From positions 1 to 21,718 of IMG/VR virus record IMGVR_UViG_3300050821_001115: a stretch of 21,718 bases of DNA, one strand, 5' to 3'. Shown one piece after another: positions 2,649 to 21,718 of the stretch. The position numbers were made by a program, and so were the translations under genes. Each line of letters opens with the position of its first letter. The first letter of the stretch is position 1. Origin of the DNA: a virus. Under the pieces are notes generated by a model. It had not been told where the DNA came from, did no database searches, and was given only the letters and a program-made list of their open reading frames with translations.

Positions 2649-3062
2649 ATGTCATATGTCAGCCATTACGAGGGGAAGCGGAAACAGGATCGGAGGACGC
2701 CGAGGGATTTCTTTGCGGAGCTACATGCCGAGTTCAATTTCACGATGGATGGCGCGGCTACGGCCAAGAATGCTCTGCTCCAAAGGTTCTCATCCCGTCG
2801 TGCCCGGATGTTTTGGGACGGGGAGCGAGTGTTCTGCAATCCGCCGTGGGCTGAAATCCCGCCATTCTTGGAGCTTGCGGCCAGCGCGGATCTTGCTGTC
2901 CTGCTTGTTCCGGCGCGGGTCAATGCGAAGTGGTTTCATCGTGCGCTGGCACTCGGAGCAAAGCCGCGATATTGGCAGGGGAAGCTGTCTTTCGATGGGC
3001 CGTGGAATTCGCCGGTGGATTGCCTGCTGCTAATTTTTGAGAAGTCCTACCCTTTGGGGTAA
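2649..3062 (+). CDS. Phage DNA N6-adenine methyltransferase (Dam-like)
   Basis: 137 residues from ATG 2649, with GGAA at the right distance. The N-terminus QDRRTPRDFFAELHAEFNF, then D34-x-AA-x-x-x-NA, is the signature opening of the phage N-6-adenine-methyltransferase family; FCNPPW (62-67) is the catalytic (D/N)PP(Y/F/W) motif, and the following PPFLELA ... LLVPAR segment is the expected strand-helix unit. Such enzymes transfer methyl from S-adenosylmethionine to the adenine N6, usually protecting phage DNA from host restriction. At 137 residues it is a little shorter than relatives I know (about 150-180), mainly at the C-terminus, yet the ORF is intact. Target sequence cannot be read off. 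Larger overlapping frames at 2621-2854 and 2656-3033 are shadows. Bracketed by short direct repeats (2624-2641, 3049-3071). Confidence 0.9.
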   Translation: MSYVSHYEGKRKQDRRTPRDFFAELHAEFNFTMDGAATAKNALLQRFSSRRARMFWDGERVFCNPPWAEIPPFLELAASADLAVLLVPARVNAKWFHRALALGAKPRYWQGKLSFDGPWNSPVDCLLLIFEKSYPLG

Positions 3063-6836: not shown

Positions 6837-6850
6837 GTCCAAAATTGGAA

Positions 6851-7279
6851 TCACGTCCACACACCACTTTCCATCTGGATCGCAAGTCTGTGCGCACGGT
6901 CGCCTACTTGTGTTGCCCATTTTGATTGCAGCATCCCTTTAGCAGCACCAGTGTAGTCCCCAGTCTGAATCTTAGCTAAGGTATCATGAAACTCAAGCAG
7001 CCCAGAAATCCCCATATTAAAGGCCATATTCAGGAGAACGCCAAATCTAGCATCATCGAGATCAGAAGTCCATGGCAATGCTTTCTTTAACTAGAATCTG
7101 GCCCTCGTAACATCATTGTAGAGCAGTAAGAATACTTCATCTTGCGAAATGCCTACATCAGTGAGATTACGACCACACCCTATCGTGGCTTTATCTACAG
7201 TATCAATGTACAACTTAAGACGAATGCCCTCATCTCTCTTAATTTGCTCATAGATGTCCACTAGTCCACGCCCTTCCAT
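6851..7279 (-). CDS. GH24 (T4-type) endolysin/lysozyme interrupted by one in-frame TAG codon
   Basis: Reading from ATG 7279 (or GTG 7261, which would give the more usual start VDIYEQIKRDEG), residues 1-62 are the N-terminal half of a phage lysozyme with the whole catalytic triad: E17, D26 and T32, spaced 9 and 6 as in T4 lysozyme E11-D20-T26, in DEGIRLKLYID and TIGCGRNLTDVGIS. Codon 63 (7091-7093) is TAG. The frame then continues without shift as LKKALPWTSDLDDARFGVLLNMAFNMG ... WATQVGDRAHRLAIQM to TGA at 6851, the normal C-terminal half. Aligned with homologs from memory, the TAG sits at a position that usually holds Gln or Glu, one base from CAG/GAG. The enzyme hydrolyses peptidoglycan at lysis. 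A recent nonsense mutation, readthrough or suppression, or a sequence error are all possible. No signal peptide is visible, so a holin should release it. Confidence 0.85.
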
Positions 7280-7300: not shown

Positions 7301-7510
7301 TCATCGTAAAGCCGGAATCAAGCGTATGACTACACCAAGAATAGTGCCTGCCACGCCACCCCAAATGCCTGCTTTTATTTTGAGTGAAAGCACATCCCGA
7401 TCTACTTTCTGTAAATCACCACGCAGCCCAGCAATTTCATTACTCAGTCTCTCTAATTCATGCACTACCAGTTTACGGTACTCACCCCAACCATTGGCTT
7501 CTGGATTCAT
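7301..7510 (-). CDS. Small coiled-coil protein with C-terminal membrane helix (XhlA-like)
   Basis: 69 residues from ATG 7510, which overlaps the preceding stop (ATGA) and has AAGGAG at 7519-7524. An N-terminal coiled coil (YRKLVVHELERLSNEIAGLRGDLQKVDRDVLSLKIK) is followed by one membrane helix (AGIWGGVAGTILGVVIRLIPAL). This architecture is typical of phage haemolysin XhlA-like or holin-associated proteins encoded directly before the endolysin. It probably sits in the inner membrane with the coiled coil in the cytoplasm or periplasm and helps membrane permeabilisation at lysis, which is inferred from architecture and position. Confidence 0.75.
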   Translation of the reverse strand: MNPEANGWGEYRKLVVHELERLSNEIAGLRGDLQKVDRDVLSLKIKAGIWGGVAGTILGVVIRLIPALR

Positions 7511-7929
7511 CGCGTCATCTCCTTAAGACGAGTGAGATTGGCACTCTCAACTGCCTGATGTGCGTCAAATCTCTGCTCATTGTCTAAGCGGGAAAGGAGT
7601 TTGATGGAAATAGGTATTATGGCAGCCGCCGTGATGATGGACAGTACTGCCGTGATTTGCGTAATCACCAATTGTGCAATGTAACTCGGGAACCACAATG
7701 TCACTACATCCATGAGATGCGTAGTTCCACAGAAGAAAATGAAGGCGGCAAACATTAGGAACACATTCCTTCCGATCACCGCCCCCACAGTCTTATGTTG
7801 CACCAAAGCGATCAGGCTGACCGGAATGGAATAGTATGCCAACATGATCGTTAGATTGCCAATGACACCAAGGACGATAAGCCAAGGCTCATTGTTGATA
7901 CAGAAACGGTGCGGCATCCAAAGGTTCAT
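7507..7929 (-). CDS. Stand-alone ethylene-receptor-like membrane sensor domain
   Basis: 140 residues from ATG 7929, seven bases after the preceding stop and without a strong ribosome site, so translation is probably coupled. Three or four membrane helices (about 17-45, 55-75, 83-112). The motifs LAYYSIPVSLI (30-40) and FIFFCGTTHLMDVVTLW (63-79) match the N-terminal ethylene-binding domain of plant ETR1 and of cyanobacterial and other bacterial hybrid histidine kinases (LAYYSIP; FI-x-x-CG-x-TH). The copper-ligand pair C65/H69 of ETR1 corresponds to C67/H71, and Y32, I35 and P36 are retained; ETR1 D25 corresponds to N25. Even the MPH start resembles bacterial members. No PAS, GAF, kinase or receiver domain follows; only a ~30-residue charged tail. 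In a lysis cassette it might act as a holin-like or sensory membrane protein. Family match good, role unknown. Confidence 0.8.
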   Translation of the reverse strand: MNLWMPHRFCINNEPWLIVLGVIGNLTIMLAYYSIPVSLIALVQHKTVGAVIGRNVFLMFAAFIFFCGTTHLMDVVTLWFPSYIAQLVITQITAVLSIITAAAIIPISIKLLSRLDNEQRFDAHQAVESANLTRLKEMTR

Positions 7930-8912: not shown

Positions 8913-9116
8913 CTACGAAGTGGGTTGCTGGCTTCCTTTATCATTGCCCTTGAATGCCCACTGTGCAAATGCCCCGCACAGGGTAGCCAGAGAACCTAAG
9001 ACGATCTGAAGTCCATAACTCGTTGCCTCGCTGACGTGGCCTAATGCGATTACTACCGCGATCCATGCGACCGCGAGGAGTAGGCAGAAGCCGAAGATCA
9101 TTCTTGGATCTTTCAC
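8913..9116 (-). CDS. Small two-helix membrane protein, holin candidate
   Basis: 67 residues from GTG 9116, which overlaps the TGA of the preceding gene (GTGA). Two hydrophobic helices: MIFGFCLLLAVAWIAVVIALG and YGLQIVLGSLATLCGAFAQWAF, joined by HVSEATS, then a charged tail KGNDKGSQQ. Short proteins of this pattern (SYGL-x-I-x-LG-x-L-x-x-x-x-G-x-FAQWAF) occur beside holin/endolysin genes in other phages. Two helices with a charged C-terminus fit a class II holin, a role given here by architecture and position only. The longer frame up to 9296 overlaps the neighbouring gene and is not needed. TAG stop. Confidence 0.65.
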   Translation of the reverse strand: MKDPRMIFGFCLLLAVAWIAVVIALGHVSEATSYGLQIVLGSLATLCGAFAQWAFKGNDKGSQQPTS

Positions 9117-9478
9117 GCAACTGTCACCGGAGGCAAAGTCTTTACGTCTGGAGACGGCGTTGACGGACTGATAATCTGCCCAAATCCGTGCTGAATAGCA
9201 AACTGACCAAACCAGTGATAACAGGCAATCGCAATCACCGATAACGGCGGGATGGTCAAGGTCAATGTTCCTCCGCCCCCAGTAGCTGGAGCCCAAACAT
9301 GAGCAATACCAATGGTTGCGGCACCGGACATAATCAGCTTCGCCGCTAAGTTAATCTTGGTCGTGTGTGCGGAAATCCACGTAAAGTAACGGCTCTTGTT
9401 TTTCTGTGCGAAGTCCAGAGCCATCGAACATGCCGCCGCTGCCGTCAGTGAAGATAAAACTGGATCTGTAGGTATCAT
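9113..9478 (-). CDS. Membrane protein, putative holin-like
   Basis: 121 residues from ATG 9478 (ATG 9481 sits too close to GGGAGG at 9483-9488). Three hydrophobic stretches: [40 protein letters not shown], and [27 protein letters not shown], then a Pro/Ser/Thr-rich tail. The topology and its location between fibre and lysis genes suggest a holin or membrane-anchoring role. It ends by overlapping the start of the next small membrane protein (GTGA). I do not recognise the family by sequence. Confidence 0.65.
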
Positions 9479-9488
9479 CATTCCTCCC

Positions 9489-9917
9489 TTATTTACACGC
9501 CGATCCGAACGTCAATCCCGACGTACCCGAAAGAACTGCGTTCGGACAAGAAGTCAATATTGGCCCTGGTGATCCGATTGGCCCTTGCGCTCCCGTCGCC
9601 CCTATCGGCCCTTGTACTCCAGCCGGTCCCGGAGGGCCCGCGACTCCCTGTGGCCCCGGAGGGCCTTGCGCGCCCAAAGGTATATAGGCTCCGCCGTTGA
9701 AGGACACGTAGAACTGATACGATGTGCCTGAGCCTACCGGACAGATCAGGGCGAAGCTAGGAAGCCCCGCAGGACACTGAGCGACCGTCGGCGCAATCGG
9801 GCCAATGCCGGACACCCCGAAAGACTGAGCGGATACTGGAGTGAGATGGTAATTGACCAATGTAAATACTGTGCATATGATGCAAGCCACAATCGTGACT
9901 ATGTGTAACTTTCTCAT
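9489..9917 (-). CDS. Secreted collagen-like protein
   Basis: 142 residues from ATG 9917, overlapping the preceding stop (ATGA), with GGAG 8 bases upstream. Residues 1-30 are a signal peptide (basic start, [16 protein letters not shown] core, PVSA|Q cleavage site). A short beta region follows ([17 protein letters not shown]), a module often preceding collagen repeats in phage and bacterial proteins, and then 13 uninterrupted G-x-y triplets at residues 82-120 ([16 protein letters not shown] ...), which should form a collagen-type triple helix. The last ~20 residues ([22 protein letters not shown]) carry a Cys pair and may trimerise or cap it. Collagen-like stalks are common in tail fibres, but the signal peptide is unusual for a virion protein. 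Confidence 0.8.
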
Positions 9918-12175
9918 GGTCCGACTCCAATATTGATCCCGATTCCGATTGAAGTACCAAATCCTTCACTGCCCAAGGTAATTGTATAAGCCGCCGACCC
10001 TACCGCACTGTCCGTCCACCCGCCGTTCATCGCAATCGCCTTGAGAGTCTCGCTCACGCTCACCGAGACCGTTCCCGAGACCAAGCTGCCATTGGAACAT
10101 GTACCGCTTCCATTGGATGTCGGTGTGGTGCCGTTCGTAGTAAAGCACATCGCCAGGCTCTCGGCAGAGGAAATCGTTACCGTCTGAGTCGAGGCATACG
10201 TCCCTCCTACCGGACTGAAAGTCGGAGCCGATCCTTGCAAGGTATAGACGTGGGAGACCAAGGCGCTGTCGGTTAAGGTACTCGTGCCGGCAATGATCTT
10301 GATGGTCTCGCTCACCGTGACTGAGATTGCCACGGTGTACGCCGTCCCCGTCGTGCATCCCGTCCCCAGACCATTCGTAGCCGGCGTCGTGCCGTTGGTC
10401 GTGAAGCACATGACCGTCGTGCCGCTGTTCGGGTTCGTGCAGCGCGCAGACTGGGTAGCGTTGTAGGTTCCCGTACCCGGCGAGCAACTTGGGCTTGACG
10501 CCTGTGATGTCGAGAATTGATCTCCGCCCACGTTCCAGTTTCCAGCTCCAGGGCGAGCTACTGAGGGCTGGTTTGGGCAAGTTGGCTTGTGGTTTGTCGA
10601 GTCATAAGTACAGGCATTCGTCGTGCCAGCCTTGCAAGCGTTGACCGCGTTGGTGTCTCCCAGAACTGCGAAGGTACAGTAAACCAAGGTCTCGTTAGCA
10701 CCAGCGGCAGTCACGGTCGGACTGGAGGATGACGTAGGAGAGAAATCGTTGCCTGACGTATAGCCGTTGGCATTAGCAACCGTCGTGGTCTCGTAGAGAG
10801 CCGTGGTCTCTGTCAGGTTTGCGGTCTTGCACCACACGTCAGCCTGTGTTCCCACATCCGACACCCAGAAATTATTGGCTGAGACTTGAGTGCCGTTCGC
10901 TCCCGGCCCAACGATACAGGACGCCGAACCGCCCGAAGTATGCTTCGACCCCGTGTTATTGAAGTACAGCGTCACGCCATCGCAAGATGCTCCGCAACCG
11001 TTGTCGTCGGTGACCATCGAGCCATTTCCGCCGCCCGGCTGGTTGTCATGCGTCTTGTTGTTGAAGACGTAGTCGGTCTGGAGGTGCGGGGTGTCATTGG
11101 CAAGTACGTAGGAAACAGATTGGCCGAAATCAGTTCCGATGAATCGGTACTCATTGTTGTAGAACAGGTTCGGTGCGCTCGACCCCCCTGTAAACTCCGA
11201 GAAACAAAAGTCCACATCCGTATGCGTCGAACCATCATTGGAATTGTTGTAGTGCTCGTAAAGATTGTCGTGGTGAATGTGGCATACGTTGAAAACCGTC
11301 GTCCCGCCCACGTTTCGGACGATGTTGTACTGAACAATGTAACCATCTCCACCTTCCGAGAAAGGGTCCATCGTCAATGGATCAGAATCCGCGCCGTCAA
11401 TCACGTTAAACTGAATCTGGCTGCCTGGAGAACCGTTGTGTCCGGCGAGTGCCGAGCCACCAGATTGTTTCCCAGCCGCGGTACGCGTCCAACCATGCAC
11501 ATAATTGTTCTCAATGATCTGCGGTTGAACGCTGGAACTTGGCCCGAACCACTTGATGACGATGTTGTTTCCGAAAGTCTTGGAGTTCCAGCAGAATCCC
11601 GTCCACTCGAAGTTATCGAGTATGAAGTAGGCGCGGGAACCAGCCTGCCACATCACGTTGTTTGCGCCGGTCGAGAAGCTGCAACTCCCTACCGTACTGG
11701 TACTAGTCGCGTTGTCTTGCGTCATTAAGGGACGAGTCCACGACCCACCCGTGAACCACGTTTGATCTACGCCAACGTAGGTATAATTTCCTGCCGTTCC
11801 GCTGGTCTTAAGGGCCCACGTACCCCCTGTATATGGAGTCAATCCAGAGTTTCCGAAGTGATACGTGTCACCCCCACGGACGATCACTCCAATACCCGCT
11901 CCACTCGAAGCCGTGGCGCAGTTACCCGTGCAGTTCGGCATCCCCGGAGCATGAAGAAACGGATGCCCCGCTACTTCCGAGAGACCATCATTGGAGTCCA
12001 AACCATTTGCCGCTACATAGTAGCAACTCGTTACGCCAAGAGTCGCCAGCGTGACTAATGGCCCTCCGGGGTTTGTGTCGCTGAGATAGTTCGCTCCGGT
12101 AGGACAGGAACCGCCCACAGCGAAAGCACTTGTTGCAAGCATCAGTAAACCGACGATGAGAAACAGTTTTCGCAT
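9914..12175 (-). CDS. Secreted beta-helix protein with two chitobiase-C-terminal-like repeats
   Basis: 753 residues from ATG 12175, one base after the preceding stop (TGA-g-ATG). Signal peptide [20 protein letters not shown]. Residues ~25-540 have the look of a right-handed parallel beta helix: repeated short strands with Asn/Gly turns ([44 protein letters not shown]), as in polysaccharide lyases and phage depolymerases. Residues ~555-645 and ~650-733 are two immunoglobulin-like repeats of the CHB_HEX_C_1 type (F/S-P-x-x-GTY-x-x-x-Q ... CFTTNGTTP ... VSETLKAIA ... DS-x-V-x-x-x-YTI). The end [14 protein letters not shown] is Gly/Ile-rich. No catalytic residues can be named. A surface-glycan-binding or -degrading protein is likely. 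Large + strand frames such as 10886-11728 are shadows of this gene. Confidence 0.8.
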
Positions 12176-12176
12176 C

Positions 12177-15100
12177 TCAGTACACGAAGAAGGCATGGTT
12201 ACCATTGTTCCCGTCATTGACGATGCCAGCCGCAGGAATAGCAATCGTTGCCCCTACCGCACCTAAGTCTCCCGCCGTGGCCGCAGTCGCACTCACCAGA
12301 GAGGTTACCGGGAAATAAATGCTGCTGGTCTGGAGACAAGAAAACTTAGCCACGTTCGTCGCGCTGGCATTATTTCCCGCGACCACAAACCAGTAATCGC
12401 CAGGAGGAAGATAGGTCGTCGCTGTAAGCGCAATGCTGATCGTGGTTCCCGTGGTCTGCGTTAATCCCTGTGCTCCGATGTGGGCCATGAGCACGCCGTT
12501 AGTTCCGGGAGCGCCATAGACAAGTCCCATGTCGTAATGGTTCGTTCCTGTGGGATCGTTGGTATTCAGGAAGAAGCGGATGTTGGAGACCTTGGCGCCG
12601 TTTGGTCCAACGTGGAGTATATTATCAATCTGAATCTGGTTCGCAGTGGCAGTTCCTACCGCAAAGCATGAACTGCTAGCTCCGCCGTTAAGGGCTGGAA
12701 TACTGCCTGTGCTGAAATCTGGAGGAAATATCCTCGATCCATCAGCAAGGATATAGTTCGATCCATCTGAGCAAATCTTGACTCCCTGTCCCGGCCAGAT
12801 GGGTTGAGCCGTGTAAGCCGTCCCATCAAGAGTTAGGGAGTTCGTGTTTAGCAATAGCGGATAAGGAATCGAGTTGATCGAATTCTCGATGATCTCGCAC
12901 GGCATGTTTCCGCTAACGAGTGCTGGAGCAGAAGCCAGCATGGTATGCGTTACGCTGGTTGATGAAGAAATCGTGTAAGTGACTTCCGTTGGAGGAGTGG
13001 TCGCGTTCGAGAAGTCTCCAGTGACCGTAGTGTAGTTCGCGGTCTTGGCTAGTTTGGTGACGGTTGCGGGAGCCCCTGACCCCGCCGCTGGAGCCACGTC
13101 CACCTTCGACAATTCCAAGTTAGTACCGTCGTAACACAGAACCACTTCCTGATTCGCCTTAACATAATTAGCGGCCAGAGTCGTAGAACCCTGCCATGAA
13201 ACGCTCTTGGCTCCCAGCGAGTTTGGATTGACCGTCAATCCCGTGCCCGTGTTAGCGGTCGTAGTCGTATAGGTAAAACAGCTTCCCGCAACAACCGTGA
13301 AAGTTGGAGTCGTGTTACAGACTTGAGCCGAACCGGAGCCGGAGGAATCAGGGCAAGTGTTGTACGTCGGGCTAGTAATCGGCTTGTTGAAGCTGACGTT
13401 GTTCGTTCCGAACAGCACTGTCGGCGTCCCGGTATCGGCGCTTTGCAACGAACCGCCAGCAGGGAAAGTGATTACCCCGGCAGCGGGAACAGTTGCCGTG
13501 CCTGTCGCTAGGCCACCTGTGAAGAATCCGTTTCCACCCTTGTCAATGATGACCTGCGGGGTATTACCTACGCGAAGATTGAGTAGGTCAGCGGTCGCGG
13601 CTGAAGCCGTATTCGTCACGTTTCCAAAGATCAAGTGCCCGACTAGCGCTGCATTGTTCCACGTAGTCTGAAACTGTGCAGCGGGAGGCCCGGTAGCACC
13701 AGTTACGCTTCCCTGTAAAACCCCAAAAGGAGAGGCAGTAGAACCGGCTAGTGTAGTGTGATTACATACCACTTGATTAGCCAGCGCGTTCGTCAAAGTC
13801 CCGTTCGTCGCCGCCGCCGTTTCCCCACAGGTTAAAGCGTTGGTTGCATCGGTAGTCAGAGTCCAATTCAGAACCAGCGGATTGTTGCCGTTGGCGATCG
13901 TTGCTGAATTGAGCGCAGAAGTCAGGTCCGATATGGCAGGATAGGACCATGACGCCTGCTGAGGGTTATTCCCATCCGTGGACCACATCTGACGCGCCGT
14001 TCCGGTCACCGTAGGAAAATTGATTTTGTTCGGCGTACCCGCTACCGCAGCCACGCCAAGAATAGAACTACCACTAGTTGCTCCATTAAGCGTAATACTC
14101 CCAAGCTGAGTGTTGCCCAACCCGCAAGATGACTCGACGGCTGGAGGAGGCCCTGAACCTATACGATAAAAGGCGATGTTTTTATCCGCGCAAGTTATCC
14201 CCGTTACATTGTCTTTTATGGTATTTACCGTACCCCCAATCCGATTAAGACTTTCTAGGTTTATATTTTGTGATCCCGCCCCAATATCCACCATGGCGGA
14301 AGGCGTGCTCGCATTACAGCACCCATTCAGCGTGCGAAAACTGACTCCATCGGTCTTTACTAAGGCTGGAGTAGCGCCCACGTTGATGCCAGGAAACGCA
14401 GCATTTAAGGATGCATTGCCACCGATCTCTGCCTCAGTAGGAGCGAATTGAAAAGAAAAATCATGGAACGAACCTTGCGCGCCGTACCAAACAATACCGA
14501 TAGGGGTGGAAGCGCTCGTATAGGGCGTTCCGCATGTTGCTGTACTCATATTCACAGGCACTCCGCCTGCTTGGGAAGGAGTGCCAAAAAGCAGAGTGCC
14601 GTTAGATATTTCTCCGATGTGACTGTTTGTTACGGTGCCGCCTCCAATTTTAGGGCCATCCACCAAAATGCCAAGTGTATTGCAATTAAGAGGATCCAGG
14701 TTGGCGAAGTTTACTCCTGTGCTCACCGCCCTGGAATAAGTTGCACCAGAGTTTGATCCCGTAGGAGCGGAGACCTGAATCAATGTGGGACTGATAACAG
14801 AAGTAATTGTGCAAGGGCTGCACGTTGCTCCTGTGATCGTGACCGTGCCTGTCCAATTCGAGCCGAACTTAGACCCCGAAACCCAACTCACGCAGTTAGA
14901 TGAGCATCCTCCAATTCCTGAATTTTGTGTATTTACTGTTCCTGTTAGAGTGTCCCCAGTGTTGGAATAAGTCTCATAAACTGAGTTACCGGTACCGACT
15001 GAAGTTGCTCCATTGCAGCCAGAGTTGGATGTCACTTCGCAAGTCTCGGCTAAGTACTGACCGATTATGTTAGTCATCCATCCAGATTGCGAGTCTCCTC

Positions 15101-16352
15101 CGCCAGTGGCTAGACCATCTCCGCTGCCAGCTGTTGCGAATTCAGACAGACGCATGAACTCTCCGCCTGTATTAAAAAAACTTACCCGGTAAACTCCGGA
15201 TTGTTCTTCCGCATCATCATTGAGATATGGAATACAACCAACGACCCACGAACAACTTACTCCCATGTCAGTAATAAAAGAGTTGTACTGGGCATTTCCT
15301 CCAGGATTTCCGTTACGAAGTAATGAAGTACCCTCATAGATCGTTCCGCAATTCGCGGTGCAGGCCGTTGTTCCCGAAGGAACAGCAATTTGAAAACTGG
15401 TAGAGACTGTTCCCGCCCCGCAAGCAATATTCACGGCGATAAAATGATTTGCAATATTGTAATAAGCTGGCAGACCACCACTTGACCCTACTGGATAGAT
15501 GAATACATCTTGTCCATTATTTCCACTACCTCCTGTACACATCGTTCCGTTCGGAGACGATGTAGTGACTGTGGCCAACGATGGACTACCTGATGCTGCG
15601 GAGATCGTGAATCCGGTTACGCTAGGCACCGAAAAACCAGAACCGCCAGTATTATAAAGACTGAGATTATTGGCCCGTAAAATCGTGCCCGAGGTAGATG
15701 CCCCAAATGCTTGGTGGGGAGTCGCCACGCCAGCTCCGATCAACTTTACACTAGGCGGGACAGCCCATGTTACATCCGTGCGTATATCTAAAGCAGCAGC
15801 TCCTTTAAAATCTAACGCACCGGCATTTGTCCAACCACTAAATGGCGAGGAAGTGCAAAGCTGTTTACCAATAAATGGAGCACGTACATAGCAATAATTG
15901 GAGGCCCCTGAACAAGACGGACTGGCCCGCGCCGCAACAATTTTGGCACACATGTCCGCCCCAGAGAATTGCGTAGCATCTACGAAAATAGCGGAGGTGG
16001 AGTACCCTGTTGAATTGTTGAAATTGATGACTGGATAGCCCTGCGTGCCTGATGGTAAAGAACCCGTTCCACAATCTGCCGCCGTAATCTGTAGATTCCC
16101 GTTTGCATCGGTATCAATGCAGCGAGATGCAGTTGCAGCCCCAGTGAATGTGGGGAATAACGTCGTGTTTCCTGTCTTGGTTCCAACCGCAATATCCGCA
16201 CTATTGTTGCCAATGACGGGAAGACCTAGCGTCAAGCCTCCTAGAGTGTTGGTAACCGTGCCGCTGCCATTAGTCCCTCCTCCGCTTGAAGATTGCGCTA
16301 CTGCCATCGCTGAAAGTAGGATAGCGAAGAATATTGATATCGGGATTCTCAT
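12177..16352 (-). CDS. Giant secreted fibre/adhesin-like protein, pectate-lyase-like fold
   Basis: 1391 residues from ATG 16352, with AGGAGG at 16356-16361; the in-frame ATG 16388 lacks a site. Signal peptide MRIPISIFFAILLSAMAVA|Q. The mature protein is very low in charge and rich in Gly, Ser, Thr, Asn and Ala. Residues ~20-110 hold short repeats of the form GGLTLGLPVIGNN and GTGSLPSGTQ; then VDATQFSGADMCAKI ... YVRAPF ... KLIGAG begins a pectate-lyase-like beta helix of several hundred residues with many Cys. The middle and C-terminal thirds have fibre-like segments (VTGATGPPAAQFQTTWNN; PQVIIDKGGNGFFTGG) and a final jelly-roll-like domain (NIRFFLNTNDPTG ... PPGDYWFVVAGNN). Such architecture fits a tail fibre or surface adhesin. 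The signal peptide implies export by the host. Three cistrons of this type follow one another. Confidence 0.8.
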   Translation of the reverse strand: MRIPISIFFAILLSAMAVAQSSSGGGTNGSGTVTNTLGGLTLGLPVIGNNSADIAVGTKTGNTTLFPTFTGAATASRCIDTDANGNLQITAADCGTGSLPSGTQGYPVINFNNSTGYSTSAIFVDATQFSGADMCAKIVAARASPSCSGASNYCYVRAPFIGKQLCTSSPFSGWTNAGALDFKGAAALDIRTDVTWAVPPSVKLIGAGVATPHQAFGASTSGTILRANNLSLYNTGGSGFSVPSVTGFTISAASGSPSLATVTTSSPNGTMCTGGSGNNGQDVFIYPVGSSGGLPAYYNIANHFIAVNIACGAGTVSTSFQIAVPSGTTACTANCGTIYEGTSLLRNGNPGGNAQYNSFITDMGVSCSWVVGCIPYLNDDAEEQSGVYRVSFFNTGGEFMRLSEFATAGSGDGLATGGGDSQSGWMTNIIGQYLAETCEVTSNSGCNGATSVGTGNSVYETYSNTGDTLTGTVNTQNSGIGGCSSNCVSWVSGSKFGSNWTGTVTITGATCSPCTITSVISPTLIQVSAPTGSNSGATYSRAVSTGVNFANLDPLNCNTLGILVDGPKIGGGTVTNSHIGEISNGTLLFGTPSQAGGVPVNMSTATCGTPYTSASTPIGIVWYGAQGSFHDFSFQFAPTEAEIGGNASLNAAFPGINVGATPALVKTDGVSFRTLNGCCNASTPSAMVDIGAGSQNINLESLNRIGGTVNTIKDNVTGITCADKNIAFYRIGSGPPPAVESSCGLGNTQLGSITLNGATSGSSILGVAAVAGTPNKINFPTVTGTARQMWSTDGNNPQQASWSYPAISDLTSALNSATIANGNNPLVLNWTLTTDATNALTCGETAAATNGTLTNALANQVVCNHTTLAGSTASPFGVLQGSVTGATGPPAAQFQTTWNNAALVGHLIFGNVTNTASAATADLLNLRVGNTPQVIIDKGGNGFFTGGLATGTATVPAAGVITFPAGGSLQSADTGTPTVLFGTNNVSFNKPITSPTYNTCPDSSGSGSAQVCNTTPTFTVVAGSCFTYTTTTANTGTGLTVNPNSLGAKSVSWQGSTTLAANYVKANQEVVLCYDGTNLELSKVDVAPAAGSGAPATVTKLAKTANYTTVTGDFSNATTPPTEVTYTISSSTSVTHTMLASAPALVSGNMPCEIIENSINSIPYPLLLNTNSLTLDGTAYTAQPIWPGQGVKICSDGSNYILADGSRIFPPDFSTGSIPALNGGASSSCFAVGTATANQIQIDNILHVGPNGAKVSNIRFFLNTNDPTGTNHYDMGLVYGAPGTNGVLMAHIGAQGLTQTTGTTISIALTATTYLPPGDYWFVVAGNNASATNVAKFSCLQTSSIYFPVTSLVSATAATAGDLGAVGATIAIPAAGIVNDGNNGNHAFFVY

Positions 16353-16360
16353 GATCCTCC

Positions 16361-16801
16361 TTATGCGATCAGCATAGTTACGAGACAAGCGTCGTTTGCA
16401 TTATCGGCATCAATGTAGTACCGATACGGATTGAACTTATTTCGCTCAAGCGGAGCGGAAGATAGAAACAGATTGGCGCCAGGAGAAAGGCTCCAGATCA
16501 TCGTGCCATAGTCGTCCCGGTTTCCATTACCTGCACCTTTACCCGCAAAACGCACGATGTAGATATTTCCTGTATTGTTCTGTACTCCGTGCGAAGCTCC
16601 AGCCTTGACCGCCTGAAAAAATAGTTGCTGTGCGGTGACCGTGTATTCGTAGGAAGTGGTAGTAGTGGCGGTTGAAGGGTCGTTTACCGATGTTGGATCA
16701 ACCAGCGACATGATGCTCACCGGAGTCCCTGGTGTCGGTACAACAATCATGCCCAGAGGCCAGTCAGGTCCGTAAATGTCTTTCAACACTGTGTTTGCCA
16801 A
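16361..16801 (-). CDS. Probable virion structural protein
   Basis: 146 residues from ATG 16801, with a perfect TAGGAGGTT at 16804-16812. The pattern GNIYIVRFAGKG-x-G-x-NRDD ... I-x-x-L-x-PGA-x-x-x-L ... N-x-F-x-PYRYYIDADNANDACLVT resembles a small phage structural protein that I know from soil-phage late regions: beta-rich, with a middle Thr/Ser stretch (STATTTTSYEYTVTA). No signal peptide or membrane segment, unlike the genes downstream. It is the first gene after the strong terminator at 16819-16849. Head-tail or baseplate decoration is a reasonable inference; the precise role is unknown. Confidence 0.65.
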   Translation of the reverse strand: MANTVLKDIYGPDWPLGMIVVPTPGTPVSIMSLVDPTSVNDPSTATTTTSYEYTVTAQQLFFQAVKAGASHGVQNNTGNIYIVRFAGKGAGNGNRDDYGTMIWSLSPGANLFLSSAPLERNKFNPYRYYIDADNANDACLVTMLIA

Positions 16802-16903: not shown

Positions 16904-17185
16904 TTACATGGGAATAAACCAAGTAATATCTCCGCTTTTGATGTCGTAGCCCAACACAGGTATAGCTGAAAGCGATGTCACTGGCGCCCCGGAAGCGGGC
17001 GGAATACCCCTGACATTCAATCCGGCCAACTTGGTCGTGGATGGCCCGCCAGCAGTCGGCGCAACGATCTTGGACTCAGTAGTTTTGCCACTAGTTCCTT
17101 GAGTCCGATACATGTGGTCGTAGAGCAGTCTCAGGTCTTCGTCTAGCCGTGGTCCGTGGCCTTGCGGGTAGTAGCGCTGGGTCAT
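16904..17185 (-). CDS. Small phage protein, probably virion-associated
   Basis: 93 residues from ATG 17185, which overlaps the stop of the upstream gene (ATGA); AGGGGA within that gene's end serves as ribosome site. The N-terminus (RYYPQGHGPRLDEDLRLLYDHMYRTQ) is a helix; the middle is a Gly/Pro/Thr-rich linker; the end (LSAIPVLGYDIKSGDITWFIPM) is beta-like. The last 15 residues resemble the short conserved motifs found at the ends of phage tail or fibre-adaptor proteins, but I cannot name the family. Followed by the terminator at 16819-16849, so this is the last gene of its transcription segment. Confidence 0.6.
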   Translation of the reverse strand: MTQRYYPQGHGPRLDEDLRLLYDHMYRTQGTSGKTTESKIVAPTAGGPSTTKLAGLNVRGIPPASGAPVTSLSAIPVLGYDIKSGDITWFIPM

Positions 17186-18546
17186 TGTCCCCTCATGGGA
17201 TAACTGTCGTCTGGAAGGAAGTACACGTTACCATGCTCATCCCAATGCCCAGGGAGAACACCACCATGAGCGAGTATCTTGAACCCGGAAGCTTTTACTT
17301 TCCGACAGAAATAGATGTCGTCCGTCATCTCGAAGTGAATAGCAGAGGACTCAGGATCGAGCAATCCTAAATCTTTCGCTTCCTGTGGAGTAACCACATC
17401 CTTGAACCACGGCTTTGGGATCTTAGCGAGCGCGGAACAGCGAATCATCATACAGCCGGTGGCGATTGACTGACACTCGAAGATGTCACCTTTTTTCCAG
17501 CGCCAAAAGGGTCCGCTACCTTCATCCTGAAATACTAACGGCGATGGTGGGTTCTCTTTGGTGCAGTAAATACCGGCAACTACGGCCACATCGTCATCTG
17601 CCGAGTCAATGGTTTGAAGCAACTTGTAAACCGCATCTTCTGGAGGTGGGTTATCGTCGTCAATGAACAGTAGATTTCGTGCTCCCAGCTCAATTGCCTG
17701 TTCCGCAATCCCCTCCCGAGCCAAGTCCCGCTTTACGCCTTTTACCGCGATGTGAACGCGGTTCGTGGAAGGCGGGAAGGCCAAGCGACTGAGAGCATAA
17801 GCCATTTCGAACGGGACGTACCGACCTGAAGAGGGGAGACCGAGGGCAACTCCGACGTTCTTTGGGAGCCTGTCACGATTGAGATACTGCCACTCTGGAA
17901 TCTCCGTTGCAGGTTGAATAGATTTCTTGGGTTCCCCTGGTAGACGTAACCCTGTTCTCCGGGACACTTCTCTCAGGTCTAACACTTCCATCCTTTTCTG
18001 GAAGCAATACCAGATCGTGCCGCAGACCTTAGTTCCATGAGGAAATATTTCATCGACTGCCTTGCATACGTCCGGCCACGCAAACGGATCGTAGTCGTGA
18101 CCACAGAGCATTCCACCGGGAGCGATTCGTGATTTCCAGTAGATGATGTCGCGTTTCACATCTTCGTACTCGTGGGAACCGTCGATGAACACCATGTCAG
18201 GCTGTGGGGTCTCTGCTGGTGATTCGTGTGAGCACTTCAGTGGAACGATGTTCTCGAAGTCCCGAGTATTTCGGAGAAATGCTTTGTAGAGAGCCCCTGG
18301 CTCTGGGTTATTCCACGGGCTACCGTACTGATCCATTGTGTCACGAAGACCGTTCCAATCATCCAACGCATACACGGTTCCAGGAGTGTTTGCTGCGAGT
18401 GCTGACGTAGAACGTCCAAGATAAGAACCAAGTTCCACGATACACTGGTGAGACTTTGCTTGCTCCGCCAGCCATTGCAATTCAATCTCAGCCATCCAAC
18501 CATCCACGGTCAGAGCTTTGGAAATGTCCACGGTCGCAGTGCTCAT
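17182..18546 (-). CDS. Fusion of SAM-dependent methyltransferase and GT-A glycosyltransferase
   Basis: 454 residues from ATG 18546, with GAGG 8 bases upstream; ATGs at 18561 and 18615 give an unnatural N-terminus. Residues ~1-180 are a class I methyltransferase (Methyltransf_24-like): motif I CIVELGSYLGRST (35-47), LDDW (61-64), VFIDGSHEYEDVKRDI (119-134) and PGGMLCGHDYD (143-153). Residues ~230-450 are a family-2-like GT-A glycosyltransferase: VGVALGLPSSGRYVPFEMA, NLLFIDDDNPPPEDAVYKLL (291-310, the DDD being the metal/nucleotide-sugar site), VVAGIYCTKE, CQSIATGCMMI and MTDDIYFCRKVKASGF (407-422). The two parts are joined by a short linker, all in one frame. The natural reading is a bifunctional enzyme that adds and methylates a sugar on a phage virion protein, on DNA, or on host surface glycan. 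Acceptor unknown. Confidence 0.85.
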   Translation of the reverse strand: MSTATVDISKALTVDGWMAEIELQWLAEQAKSHQCIVELGSYLGRSTSALAANTPGTVYALDDWNGLRDTMDQYGSPWNNPEPGALYKAFLRNTRDFENIVPLKCSHESPAETPQPDMVFIDGSHEYEDVKRDIIYWKSRIAPGGMLCGHDYDPFAWPDVCKAVDEIFPHGTKVCGTIWYCFQKRMEVLDLREVSRRTGLRLPGEPKKSIQPATEIPEWQYLNRDRLPKNVGVALGLPSSGRYVPFEMAYALSRLAFPPSTNRVHIAVKGVKRDLAREGIAEQAIELGARNLLFIDDDNPPPEDAVYKLLQTIDSADDDVAVVAGIYCTKENPPSPLVFQDEGSGPFWRWKKGDIFECQSIATGCMMIRCSALAKIPKPWFKDVVTPQEAKDLGLLDPESSAIHFEMTDDIYFCRKVKASGFKILAHGGVLPGHWDEHGNVYFLPDDSYPMRGQ

Positions 18547-18644
18547 ACTTGGGCCTCGCATGGTAAGATAACGCGAGCCGAAACAGTGTGCAAGCACCGT
18601 AACGGCTCTAGCCATAACCGATTCCTGGTTAAGAGGAGCCAGCC

Positions 18645-19226
18645 ATGGATGTTCCCGATGATACTACTGAATTGTGGAGACCGCTGCCTGACTGGGAAAC
18701 CATCTACGAGGTTTCCTCGTGCGGTAGGGTGAGAACAATAAAAACCGGAAGGACAAGAAAGCTCTCTTGTGATACTAACGGTTACCATGTCGTCCATCTC
18801 TGCGATAGAGAAAGAAAACGCACAGTCACCGTTCACGTGAAAGTGATGACTGCATTTGGTGGGTCGCGTCCATATGGAATGCAAGTTAACCATAAGAGCG
18901 GAGTGAAAACGGATGACGCATTTTCTAACCTCGAATGGACTACCTGTCTTGAAAATGTAAGGCACGCCAAAAGTCTTGGACTTACGGCATCTGGAGATAG
19001 GAATGGGCATCGTAAACACCCTGAGTCGTGGCCGCATGATTTCAGCAAGGGTGTCAATAATCCCCACAGCAAACTTAACGATAATGAAGTTAGGTACATA
19101 AAGCGTATCTTGTCTGGGACTGTGCGGCGCGGTACTATGACCGCACTGGCGAGACGGTATTCGGTGCGAGTTCAAACCATTTACAAAATCAAGATAGGGG
19201 AATCGTGGACTCATATTTTCGCTTGA
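18645..19226 (+). CDS. HNH homing endonuclease with NUMOD4 domain
   Basis: 193 residues from ATG 18645, with AAGAGGAG at 18631-18638. Residues 11-32 (WRPLPDWETIYEVSSCGRVRT) are a textbook NUMOD4 motif. Residues ~62-110 contain HVKVMTAFGG then VNHKSGVKTDDAFSNLEWTTCLENVRHA, the HNH_3-type core with the catalytic His in NH and the Asn of NLEW. The C-terminus (NNPHSKLNDNEVRYIKRIL ... ALARRYSV+VQTIYKI) is a helix-turn-helix DNA-binding module of the NUMOD/IENR kind. Free-standing mobile endonuclease: it cuts alleles lacking the gene and spreads by repair. It lies antisense in the late operon between the tail gene and the methyltransferase-glycosyltransferase gene, overlapping the tail gene's end by 16 bases. 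Not an intron gene as far as can be seen. Confidence 0.9.
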   Translation: MDVPDDTTELWRPLPDWETIYEVSSCGRVRTIKTGRTRKLSCDTNGYHVVHLCDRERKRTVTVHVKVMTAFGGSRPYGMQVNHKSGVKTDDAFSNLEWTTCLENVRHAKSLGLTASGDRNGHRKHPESWPHDFSKGVNNPHSKLNDNEVRYIKRILSGTVRRGTMTALARRYSVRVQTIYKIKIGESWTHIFA

Positions 19227-21718
19227 TCTCCGACAGGCCCGCCGAGGTTTGTGTATTTTAAATAACCTCCCTGCCTCCCCCACTGACCTACCAAGACTTC
19301 CCAATCTGGAAGATGTAACTGAAATGGTGCCGATGAGTTGGCCTTATAAAAGTATAGAGTGCCCTTGTTGGCCGTTAGTATAAAAGTAACTTTTTGCATT
19401 GCTCCGCCGCTGCTAGGGATAACAATTGGCACTGGAGACTGACCATCGAAACTAGTAATAGTGAGCGTGATTGGAGAGGTGGAAGCGTAAGCTACTGAAA
19501 CCTGCTTGACGTGCATGTAGCCAGTAACATTGTGCGACGATCCCTGCGTCTGCCATGTCTCTGCCGCCTCCGGTGTCGGTTGAGAAATGAACTCTACGTC
19601 GAAGATCCTCCACGGAACCTGGTCGGTAGGCTCGATCCTTACCAGATGTGCGATGAACGGAGTGTTGAACGAGTATGCCTTGGACTGCTCTCCGTTGTGC
19701 TGAACCGCAGGAGTAAATGGGTGAGTCGTCAACGTGTCCGCATCCCGCACAACAATGGCTTTAACCGCATTCGACGTGTCAGCGTGCAGGATGAAGCCTT
19801 GCCACCATGCAGCGGGTGCCGCTTGGTCTCCGTCCGCATTAGAGTACCAGTCGGTAAAGCGGTCGTTCGTGGTCTCAGGCTTTGGAATGAACGAAGGTTG
19901 CCAAATATGTACCTTAGTATGAGTGCTTACCGATGTGAAGTCATCTGTCCAAGTGGTCATCAATCCTAAGAAATCGGATATTACTTCCCCACCCAGAGAC
20001 ACTGGAGTTTGAAGTCGCGTTGCTTGCGGACCGATAGTCACAGGCGGCGATGCTTGTGTTCCAAAGGCCATCGGTGTAGCAGTGATGGCTGATACCGGAG
20101 TCGAGTCTAGCCAGAGGTCTCCCCATTGTTCCCCTGCGCGAACGTCTCCTCCGTCCCATTCGTTCGTTGCCACGGTACACGAGATTGGAGTGTTGATATC
20201 GTTGTGTGCGTCCTGCTGCTGCGCTACTACTCCATTGATTAAACCGTACATAAGCATCTGATAGAGCGTGTTGTTTGTAAGTACGGTCCCTTCCTGCTGC
20301 TCAGGATGGTAAATTACGGAAGCTGGCGTTCCGTAGATATCTAGCGACCATGACTTTCTCTTTCGGTCGTACACGAGCGTGTGATACACGCCGCTGGAAT
20401 CCTGGTAGGTGGCATAAAGAAATCCGTTCCCGGTTTCAAGACGAAACGTTCCAGCGCGTGAATAGTCTGGTGGAAAATACGTGACTGCACCATAGGTCAC
20501 AGACTGCCCAACAACGCCTTCATGGGGAAAGAGATTATAAAGATCGCCATCAGTCAAAGATCCTTCTTCTGTGTCCCAAATACCATCTTTGGCCCACCAT
20601 GAAATCGAAGAACCGTCAGTGCATATTCCACGCGGAGCAGCAAGACCTCGCGGGATTGATTGCTGAACTACCGAATACCGCTCAAGCCCCCCTTCTTGAA
20701 AATACATCCTCCACCATCGCTCGGTTGAAGCGACGTAGGACACGCCATCCATAATCTCTCCACCCATGAGAGGTTCGCTTGGTGGAGTTATTTCTTGGTT
20801 GTAGGTGTCGGGAGCGGAATCTGGCGCGTTCGATTTACACTCGTACACATTTCCAGGGCGTAACGAGTCTCCGACCGCAAATAACGTTCCGTTGGCATCT
20901 GGACCCCACATATAGGGGAGGTACTGCTGCGCGATTGCTGGTTCGAATATGGAAAATGACAGATTGGTTCCAGCGCCAGCATTCTCTACAAAACGGAACA
21001 TATAAGTAGTCCCAGAAATCAGAACTGGACGAGTGTAGAGGGTATAAACATTCGTACCGCCGATCTTAACCAAATTACCAGGAAGGTAGTTGATAACCCC
21101 AGCCCTCGACGGGATGCTTACGATAGCTACCGTTCCAGTTACGGACGATGCTGTGGCGTTGATAGGGAGATCAATCGAGGGCCAAGGCTGATAGTTGTCG
21201 AACTCTAACTCCGCACCACTCGCAGCAGATGCGTCAGAGTAGTTGTCAATGAACGTACCATTGGTAGATGGGGACTGACCAATATACCGCCACGAAGTTA
21301 TCGTGCCGCCATAGCGAAATACATCCCAAGTGTCAACTTGGGGATCGTAAGCTGCGCTTGGCAACTGAACTGTGACCTGCTGGCGACGGGGATTAGTTCC
21401 GTAGCGCGTAACGGGAGAGGGATTTCCTTTTGCTCCCGTAACACTGGAGCGAGGTCGAACACGATATAGATACGGTGCTCCAGCGGCACCCACGTCGGCC
21501 GAGAACCCACCCTTGACATAGATAGAGTTGAACGTTGCATTGAGCGTGCCGCTGGCATTTATCAGTACCCGTATGGCTGTCAGGTTTTGGAGGGTTTTAG
21601 TGTCATCGTTACCCACGCGAGTCAATTCTGTGATCGAGAACTCTATTTCACCCCACTGAGACGTACCTGTTGCCGATTGAGCACTTGACGACGTTGGTCC
21701 TTGATTGTTCGTCTCAGC
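19211..21718 (-). CDS. Large tail-type structural protein (N-terminus outside window)
   Basis: The frame is open across the right window edge, so the N-terminus is missing; 835 residues are visible and TTG 21625 is not a convincing start. The sequence is beta-rich with segments typical of large phage tail/baseplate or beta-propeller proteins: a fibronectin-like APYLYRVRPRSSVTG, DTWDVFRYGGTITSWRYIGQSP, YVASTERWWRMYF, RGICTDGSSISWWAKDGIW, YHTLVYDRKRKSWSLDIYG. No signal peptide can be judged. Position as the first late gene visible, upstream of the glycosyltransferase and fibre genes, fits a central tail or stalk protein. The family name is not clear. The gene stops inside the 3' end of the HNH endonuclease gene on the other strand. 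Confidence 0.7.
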   Translation of the reverse strand, partial: AETNNQGPTSSSAQSATGTSQWGEIEFSITELTRVGNDDTKTLQNLTAIRVLINASGTLNATFNSIYVKGGFSADVGAAGAPYLYRVRPRSSVTGAKGNPSPVTRYGTNPRRQQVTVQLPSAAYDPQVDTWDVFRYGGTITSWRYIGQSPSTNGTFIDNYSDASAASGAELEFDNYQPWPSIDLPINATASSVTGTVAIVSIPSRAGVINYLPGNLVKIGGTNVYTLYTRPVLISGTTYMFRFVENAGAGTNLSFSIFEPAIAQQYLPYMWGPDANGTLFAVGDSLRPGNVYECKSNAPDSAPDTYNQEITPPSEPLMGGEIMDGVSYVASTERWWRMYFQEGGLERYSVVQQSIPRGLAAPRGICTDGSSISWWAKDGIWDTEEGSLTDGDLYNLFPHEGVVGQSVTYGAVTYFPPDYSRAGTFRLETGNGFLYATYQDSSGVYHTLVYDRKRKSWSLDIYGTPASVIYHPEQQEGTVLTNNTLYQMLMYGLINGVVAQQQDAHNDINTPISCTVATNEWDGGDVRAGEQWGDLWLDSTPVSAITATPMAFGTQASPPVTIGPQATRLQTPVSLGGEVISDFLGLMTTWTDDFTSVSTHTKVHIWQPSFIPKPETTNDRFTDWYSNADGDQAAPAAWWQGFILHADTSNAVKAIVVRDADTLTTHPFTPAVQHNGEQSKAYSFNTPFIAHLVRIEPTDQVPWRIFDVEFISQPTPEAAETWQTQGSSHNVTGYMHVKQVSVAYASTSPITLTITSFDGQSPVPIVIPSSGGAMQKVTFILTANKGTLYFYKANSSAPFQLHLPDWEVLVGQWGRQGGYLKYTNLGGPVGDQAKI

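Follow-up and report, generated by a model that had tools for sequence, protein, structure and literature searches.

Signal peptides on fibre-like proteins of a probable acidobacterial phage: candidate adsorption appendages that may be exported before they join the virion

According to the textbook view, the assembly of tailed phages is wholly cytoplasmic. The locus analyzed here raises the question of why a phage should encode consecutive fibre-like proteins that begin with Sec signal peptides (SPs), and whether such proteins could still be parts of the virion. The window, meaning the whole stretch of DNA analyzed (21,718 nucleotides), is the 21.7-kb virus record IMGVR_UViG_3300050821_001115 of a soil phage, classed as linear; the three genes are called F1, F2 and F3. 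Proteins rich in G, S, T and N and of low charge are referred to as fibre-like. The features are listed below in the direction of transcription, all on the minus strand.

19211..21718, minus strand: C-terminal 835 aa of a large virion protein, homologous to the 'virion structural protein' of Tunturi_1/2 and a marker of the virion module
17182..18615, minus strand: methyltransferase/glycosyltransferase-like gene, Methyltransf_24 domain fused to a weakly glycosyltransferase-like part
16904..17185, minus strand: small gene
16361..16789, minus strand: conserved small gene, 8 nt upstream of F1, 72–79% identical in L004–L006
16353..16362, minus strand: ribosome-binding site AAGGAGG of F1, sequence CATAAGGAGGATC
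16296..16352, minus strand: SP of F1, MRIPISIFFAILLSAMAVA, predicted cleavage after residue 19, followed by QSSSGGG
12177..16352, minus strand: F1, fibre-like, 1391 aa, 34 Cys, Gly/Ser/Thr/Asn-rich, low charge, predicted Sec SP (AVA|Q)
12119..12175, minus strand: SP of F2, 19 residues
9914..12175, minus strand: F2, 753 aa, 22 Cys, C-terminal CHB_HEX_C_1/Fn3_assoc-type repeats, predicted Sec SP (AFA|V)
9489..9917, minus strand: F3, collagen-like, 142 aa, SP or N-terminal anchor, possible VSA|Q site
9113..9481, minus strand: small membrane protein, 7 nt past the end of F3, resembling a holin on inspection only
6842..7279, minus strand: lysozyme-like endolysin frame, GH24-type by eye, one in-frame stop

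The genes F1–F3 are on the same strand as, and near, the virion gene 19211–21718, and the lysozyme-like frame (about 6842–7279) comes after them, so that their placement between virion and lysis genes in a preliminary description was correct. From the 16361 gene downstream the spacings are +8, +1, −4 and +7 nt, F2 starting 1 nt past the stop of F1 and the start of F3 overlapping the stop of F2 by 4 nt. Because of this tight spacing F1–F3 and the flanking small genes (16361 to 9113) look like one translational unit. The endolysin frame is interrupted by a stop after about 62 codons and resumes in the same frame beyond it, which may reflect a sequencing error, a recent nonsense mutation or stop recoding.

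The SPs were called with two home-made scorers, first the von Heijne 1986 matrix, which undercounted A|Q sites, and then an explicit n/h/c rule; the n/h/c rule accepted 4 of 581 shuffled N-termini. By sequence inspection and by the scorers, F1 and F2 both have canonical n-h-c SPs with a −3/−1 cleavage site, at the minus-strand reading frames and with the sites (AVA|Q and AFA|V) first described. The ATG of F1 at 16352 has a perfect Shine-Dalgarno sequence, AAGGAGG, just 5' of it, and translation therefore starts at the SP methionine and not at an upstream TTG. The SP attributed to F3 was sustained in part: the N-terminus is hydrophobic and has a VSA|Q site, but an unusually long stretch separates the hydrophobic core from the site. 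Because of this stretch F3 may have a slow SP or an uncleaved anchor. The most hydrophobic 19-residue windows beyond the N-terminus scored 1.53 (F1), 1.26 (F2) and 1.35 (F3) as against 2.0–2.3 at the N-terminus, and by this measure the mature parts are without a further transmembrane segment. No lipobox with Cys at +1, as expected of a bacterial lipoprotein, was found in the F1–F3 sequences.

The folds first suggested for the three bodies fared differently. The collagen-like nature of F3 was borne out by Pfam Collagen above cut-off, and F2 proved Ig-like in substance, with CHB_HEX_C_1/Fn3_assoc repeats. The beta-helix proposed for F1 was not recovered, as there was no Pfam match and AlphaFold gave a pLDDT of 32 (residues ca. 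20–850, single sequence; for F2 a 3-row alignment gave 28). F3 was also considered as an LPXTG collagen-like adhesin (Scl/Lcl) and rejected, with 18–25 bits against cut-offs of 325–500 and no LPXTG. A sequence search of the PDB gave nothing useful, F1 and F2 had no match among annotated phages or in scans of viral contigs, and F2 had none among plasmids. In their SPs, cysteines and Fn3-like and collagen repeats the proteins resemble bacterial secreted surface proteins of the beta-helix, choice-of-anchor and collagen-like types, the choice_anch_Q domain of which is also present above cut-off in gp17 of phage Tunturi_1 (Beta_helix in gp17 was below cut-off). Unlike these, F1–F3 sit in a phage late operon and no cell-wall or outer-membrane anchor was found in them.

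The relationships of the phage were traced with the virion protein 19211–21718, which is 70–73% identical to that of the IMG/VR contigs L004–L006 and 41% identical to that of Tunturi_1 and Tunturi_2, isolated podoviruses of the acidobacterium Tunturiibacter; contigs L010–L016 are also related. Judging from the Tunturi homology, the host is probably a member of Acidobacteriota. A relative of the phage group is also present on a single-cell genome contig (CAJEYI010000005) grouped with genomes mostly of 0.5–1.1 Mb, which points either to hosts beyond Acidobacteriota or to a phage that was attached or a contaminant.

At the F1 position the three closest relatives (L004–L006) have N-termini MKTLRVGLAILMFAAIAAAQSSSGG, MKHLKLFLAALLLSGIAVAQSSSSGG and MRHLKLILALLLLSTMAVGQSSSGGG, and the first 27 residues of F1 and these counterparts show 10–19 identities per pair, while the body of F1 has no BLAST match (E 1e-5) in the other three. 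The four phages thus share only the SP and a QSSSGG linker at this position, next to a gene 72–79% identical, and a conserved N-terminus, here just SP and linker, is joined to an exchangeable C-terminal body. The glycosyltransferase-like part of the 17182–18615 product, the gene of which adjoins the fibre genes, is also kept nearby in L004–L006. SP-bearing large genes occurred in nine of the ten clade genomes, as runs of fibre-like genes, and in G006 there were none. The F2 homologues with visible starts (L071 and L137–L141) each have an SP of their own, that of L071 followed by about 240 extra residues. Among further loci resembling gp17 or F2, every one with its gene start in view carried an SP, often as part of a run of two to four such genes, several loci cut at the 5' end being uninformative on this point. 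In these F2-like and gp17-like homologues the SP is present even though the domains behind it have been reshuffled.

Runs of SP-bearing fibre-like genes in the virion module, like that of the window, were found in three unrelated lineages of Tunturiibacter phages, the host phylum of which is that inferred for the window. In the podovirus Tunturi_1, gp12, gp13, gp14, gp16 and gp17 all begin with an SP, among them all four large fibre-like proteins, and for this reason the receptor binders of the phage are probably among them. The siphovirus Tunturi_4 has SPs on gp111, gp113 and gp114. For gp111 (L023 31076–34171) the SP, MNRISKAIGLCALALSVGSSYG|QTAAVK, lies in frame upstream and matches that of gp113; the true start probably lies upstream of the deposited one (31433). 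Tunturi_4 gp114 and Tunturi_1 gp17 share 49% identity over 667 aa, but in gp17 about 380 extra residues separate the SP from the shared part. The jumbo myovirus Tunturi_5 has SPs on gp337, gp338, gp341 and gp342 (within gp337–342), annotated as tail fibre or virion structural proteins, together with other fibre-like genes that are without SP and low in Cys. Tunturi_3 has no SP-bearing large fibre. The Tunturi SP fibres are annotated by similarity only, and their bodies are unlike those of F1–F3. Neither signal peptides nor virion proteomics figure in the paper on the Tunturi phages (PMC11924767).

Annotations that bear on virion membership came from two marine Cellulophaga phages. Phage phi10:1, chosen as a control before its N-termini had been inspected, has five consecutive SP-bearing genes, gp091–gp095, of which gp091–gp094 carry the GenBank note 'structural protein, experimental MS/MS proteomics' and gp095 is a pectate lyase. 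In phi18:3, gp085–gp087 are all SP-bearing and all annotated in GenBank as MS/MS-identified structural proteins, so that altogether seven SP-bearing proteins of the two phages are annotated as found in virions. Like F1–F3, these are consecutive large fibre- or pectate-lyase-like proteins with SPI-type SPs next to tail genes; they differ in their Bacteroidota host and low Cys content, and are analogues without known homology to F1–F3. Among the Cellulophaga phages (L149–L151) the SP and about 100 aa are 83–95% conserved and the C-terminus is replaced. The proteins gp081 and gp082 of phi46:3 have only the first 38 aa in common (74%), and in phi17:2 gp054 the same 658-aa body (49.5%) follows a 314-aa N-terminus that has no SP. 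The pattern is that of tail-fibre mosaicism, with an SP module and a non-SP module as alternatives. A C-terminal tag, NQ(K/N)LIYWRY, was also seen in SP-bearing Cellulophaga proteins (L144 8252–9592, L145 8252–9592, L146 8072–9322 and L148 8145–9449) and may serve in sorting or docking.

Classical tail fibres and tailspikes (T7 gp17, P22 gp9, crAss001 gp22–gp26) are like F1–F3 in genome position and repetitive composition, and their N-terminal conservation with C-terminal swapping has its likeness in the Cellulophaga parallels. They are, in contrast to F1 and F2, without SP, and fold and assemble in the cytoplasm. By the rule, no SP-bearing genes of at least 300 aa were found in T4 (most of the genome), T7, P22, N4, Flavobacterium 11b, HTVC010P, P-SSP7, VHML or phi1402, and crAss001, Mx8 and FCL-2 had one match each, that of crAss001 being an SPFH membrane protein and none of its tailspikes having an SP. 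The premise of the preliminary description that tail fibres lack SPs is thus true of T4, T7, P22, N4 and crAss001 but not general. Altogether 38 of 343 genes in the acidobacterial-type set were SP-bearing compared to 8 of 230 in the comparators (p 9e-4), five of these eight coming from phi10:1. Among fibre-like proteins the proportions were 35/71 and 2/6, a difference that was not significant (p 0.68) in a subset too small for the purpose. A restriction of SP fibres to Acidobacteriota was considered and dropped because of the five in a row in phi10:1.

Within the acidobacterial-type phages, fibre-like proteins with SP contain 2.20% Cys (n = 35) and those without 0.66% (n = 36; p 1e-8). A site of the form small-x-small|Q follows the core in 41 of 58 cases against 19 expected from shuffling (16 of 17 against 4.9 in Cellulophaga); the sets include relatives and one or two non-fibre proteins, and the counts are not independent events. 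Cysteine is the best-conserved residue between F2 and its L071 homologue (14/19 compared to 231/616 overall), and between Tunturi_4 gp114 and Tunturi_1 gp17 it is kept at 18 of 20 positions compared to 381 of 695 overall. As the Cellulophaga SP fibres are Cys-poor, Cys enrichment was dropped as a general mark of SP fibres.

The SP that is kept while bodies are swapped, the high content of conserved Cys and the retained cleavage motif together support export well, and the earlier suggestion that the proteins are exported late in infection is in this respect upheld by the sequences; F1 and F2 are very probably exported. By analogy, and since other receptor binders are eliminated in Tunturi_1, they are also likely, with less assurance, to be virion proteins. 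F1, F2 and probably F3 would then be adsorption appendages, whether tail fibres, spikes or the tips of fibres. They would be synthesized as Sec precursors late in infection and exported through the host Sec translocon. Signal peptidase I would cleave their SPs, they would fold with disulphides in the periplasm, and they would attach to tails at or after lysis, on meeting the virions from the cytoplasm. Assembly at that point, provided that export and virion membership hold and the SP is cleaved, has odds close to even or slightly lower. To the reading as a whole, in which we infer virion membership, cleavage and place of assembly, we assign a probability of roughly 0.5. Among the roles suggested at first, assembly outside on released virions is the best supported because SP fibres are annotated as MS/MS-detected in two Cellulophaga phages; coating of the host surface, superinfection exclusion and capsule degradation gained no specific support. 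Against the reading it must be said that the virion evidence consists of GenBank notes on Bacteroidota phages and that purified preparations can carry co-purifying proteins, that a Sec-exported fibre must still meet the virions through the envelope, and that the Cys argument is not general and both Tunturi_3 and the clade member G006 are without an SP-bearing large fibre.

The main rival explanation is export without incorporation into the virion, the proteins being secreted accessory proteins that bind or degrade exopolysaccharide, coat surfaces, cause superinfection exclusion or act as public goods in soil. Domains of extracellular type agree with this (CHB_HEX_C_1/Fn3_assoc in F2, choice_anch_Q in Tunturi_1 gp17, the collagen-like F3), as does the pectate lyase adjoining the phi10:1 run, beta-helix pectate lyases being classical secreted enzymes. 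We nevertheless consider it rather unlikely: the genes lie in the virion module ahead of the lysis genes, the annotations of phi10:1 and phi18:3 give comparable proteins as detected in virions by MS, the C-terminal swap behind a conserved N-terminus is fibre-like, and Tunturi_1 would otherwise be without an obvious large fibre.

A reading of the hydrophobic N-terminus as an uncleaved plug or anchor docking the fibre in the virion, instead of as an export signal, is quite improbable. The conserved basic n-region and the small-x-small|Q motif well above shuffling speak against this, the Cys enrichment in acidobacterial-type phages points to real export, and such N-termini would go to Sec by default, even though a plug would account for an N-terminus conserved in annotated virion proteins and for its replacing the usual N-terminal domain of phi17:2 gp054. 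That the SPs are functionless relics of a recent capture of host secreted proteins, which the domain types resembling bacterial surface proteins might suggest, is hardly credible, as the SP persists in unrelated phages and in proteins with reshuffled domains and has been transferred whole to different bodies (phi46:3 gp081/gp082; the matching SPs of Tunturi_4 gp111/gp113).

What appears to be new here is tail fibres or spikes carrying a putative Sec signal. Many unrelated phages encode SP-tagged fibre-like proteins, and the results suggest that some phage fibres pass out of the cytoplasm before they become part of the particle. More tentatively, and at somewhat less than even odds, assembly may be divided between two compartments in the tailed phages of two or more diderm phyla (Acidobacteriota and Bacteroidota), the head and tail being built in the cytoplasm while the receptor-binding fibres are Sec-exported, mature in the periplasm and dock in the course of lysis or afterwards, and the SP may be a mobile module between unrelated morphotypes. 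A search of the open-access literature, of incomplete coverage and without the original Cellulophaga genome paper, found SP-bearing tail fibres nowhere described as a phenomenon and no remark on the SPs of the Cellulophaga fibres. If fibres are exported first, phage morphogenesis draws on the host secretion machinery and disulphide-bonded fibres become possible. The absence of an SP has been taken as support for the phage origin of DGR proteins (PMC6199706). If the exported-fibre reading is true, SP-based filters in virus annotation could wrongly class fibres as host genes, and in little-known phages of soil and sea the host-range proteins could be located by their SP runs. The cultured systems Tunturi_1, 4 and 5, phi10:1 and phi18:3 make the idea of export directly testable.

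Three further genes of the window deserve mention. A NUMOD4/HNH homing endonuclease gene (18645–19226, plus strand) lies opposite to and overlaps the end of the large virion gene, and a Dam-type adenine methylase gene (PF05869, E 6e-13) is located at 2649–3062 on the plus strand. The third, at 7507–7929 on the minus strand, encodes a 140-aa membrane protein matching Pfam ETR1_N, the ethylene-receptor N-terminal domain (E 6.7e-24); a search of 17 related records, run without a positive control, gave no match to it. The product retains the YxxIP and CxxxH (FCGTTHLMD) positions, which we take to be those that bind ethylene via copper in plant ETR1, and is a stand-alone ethylene-receptor-like domain in a phage.
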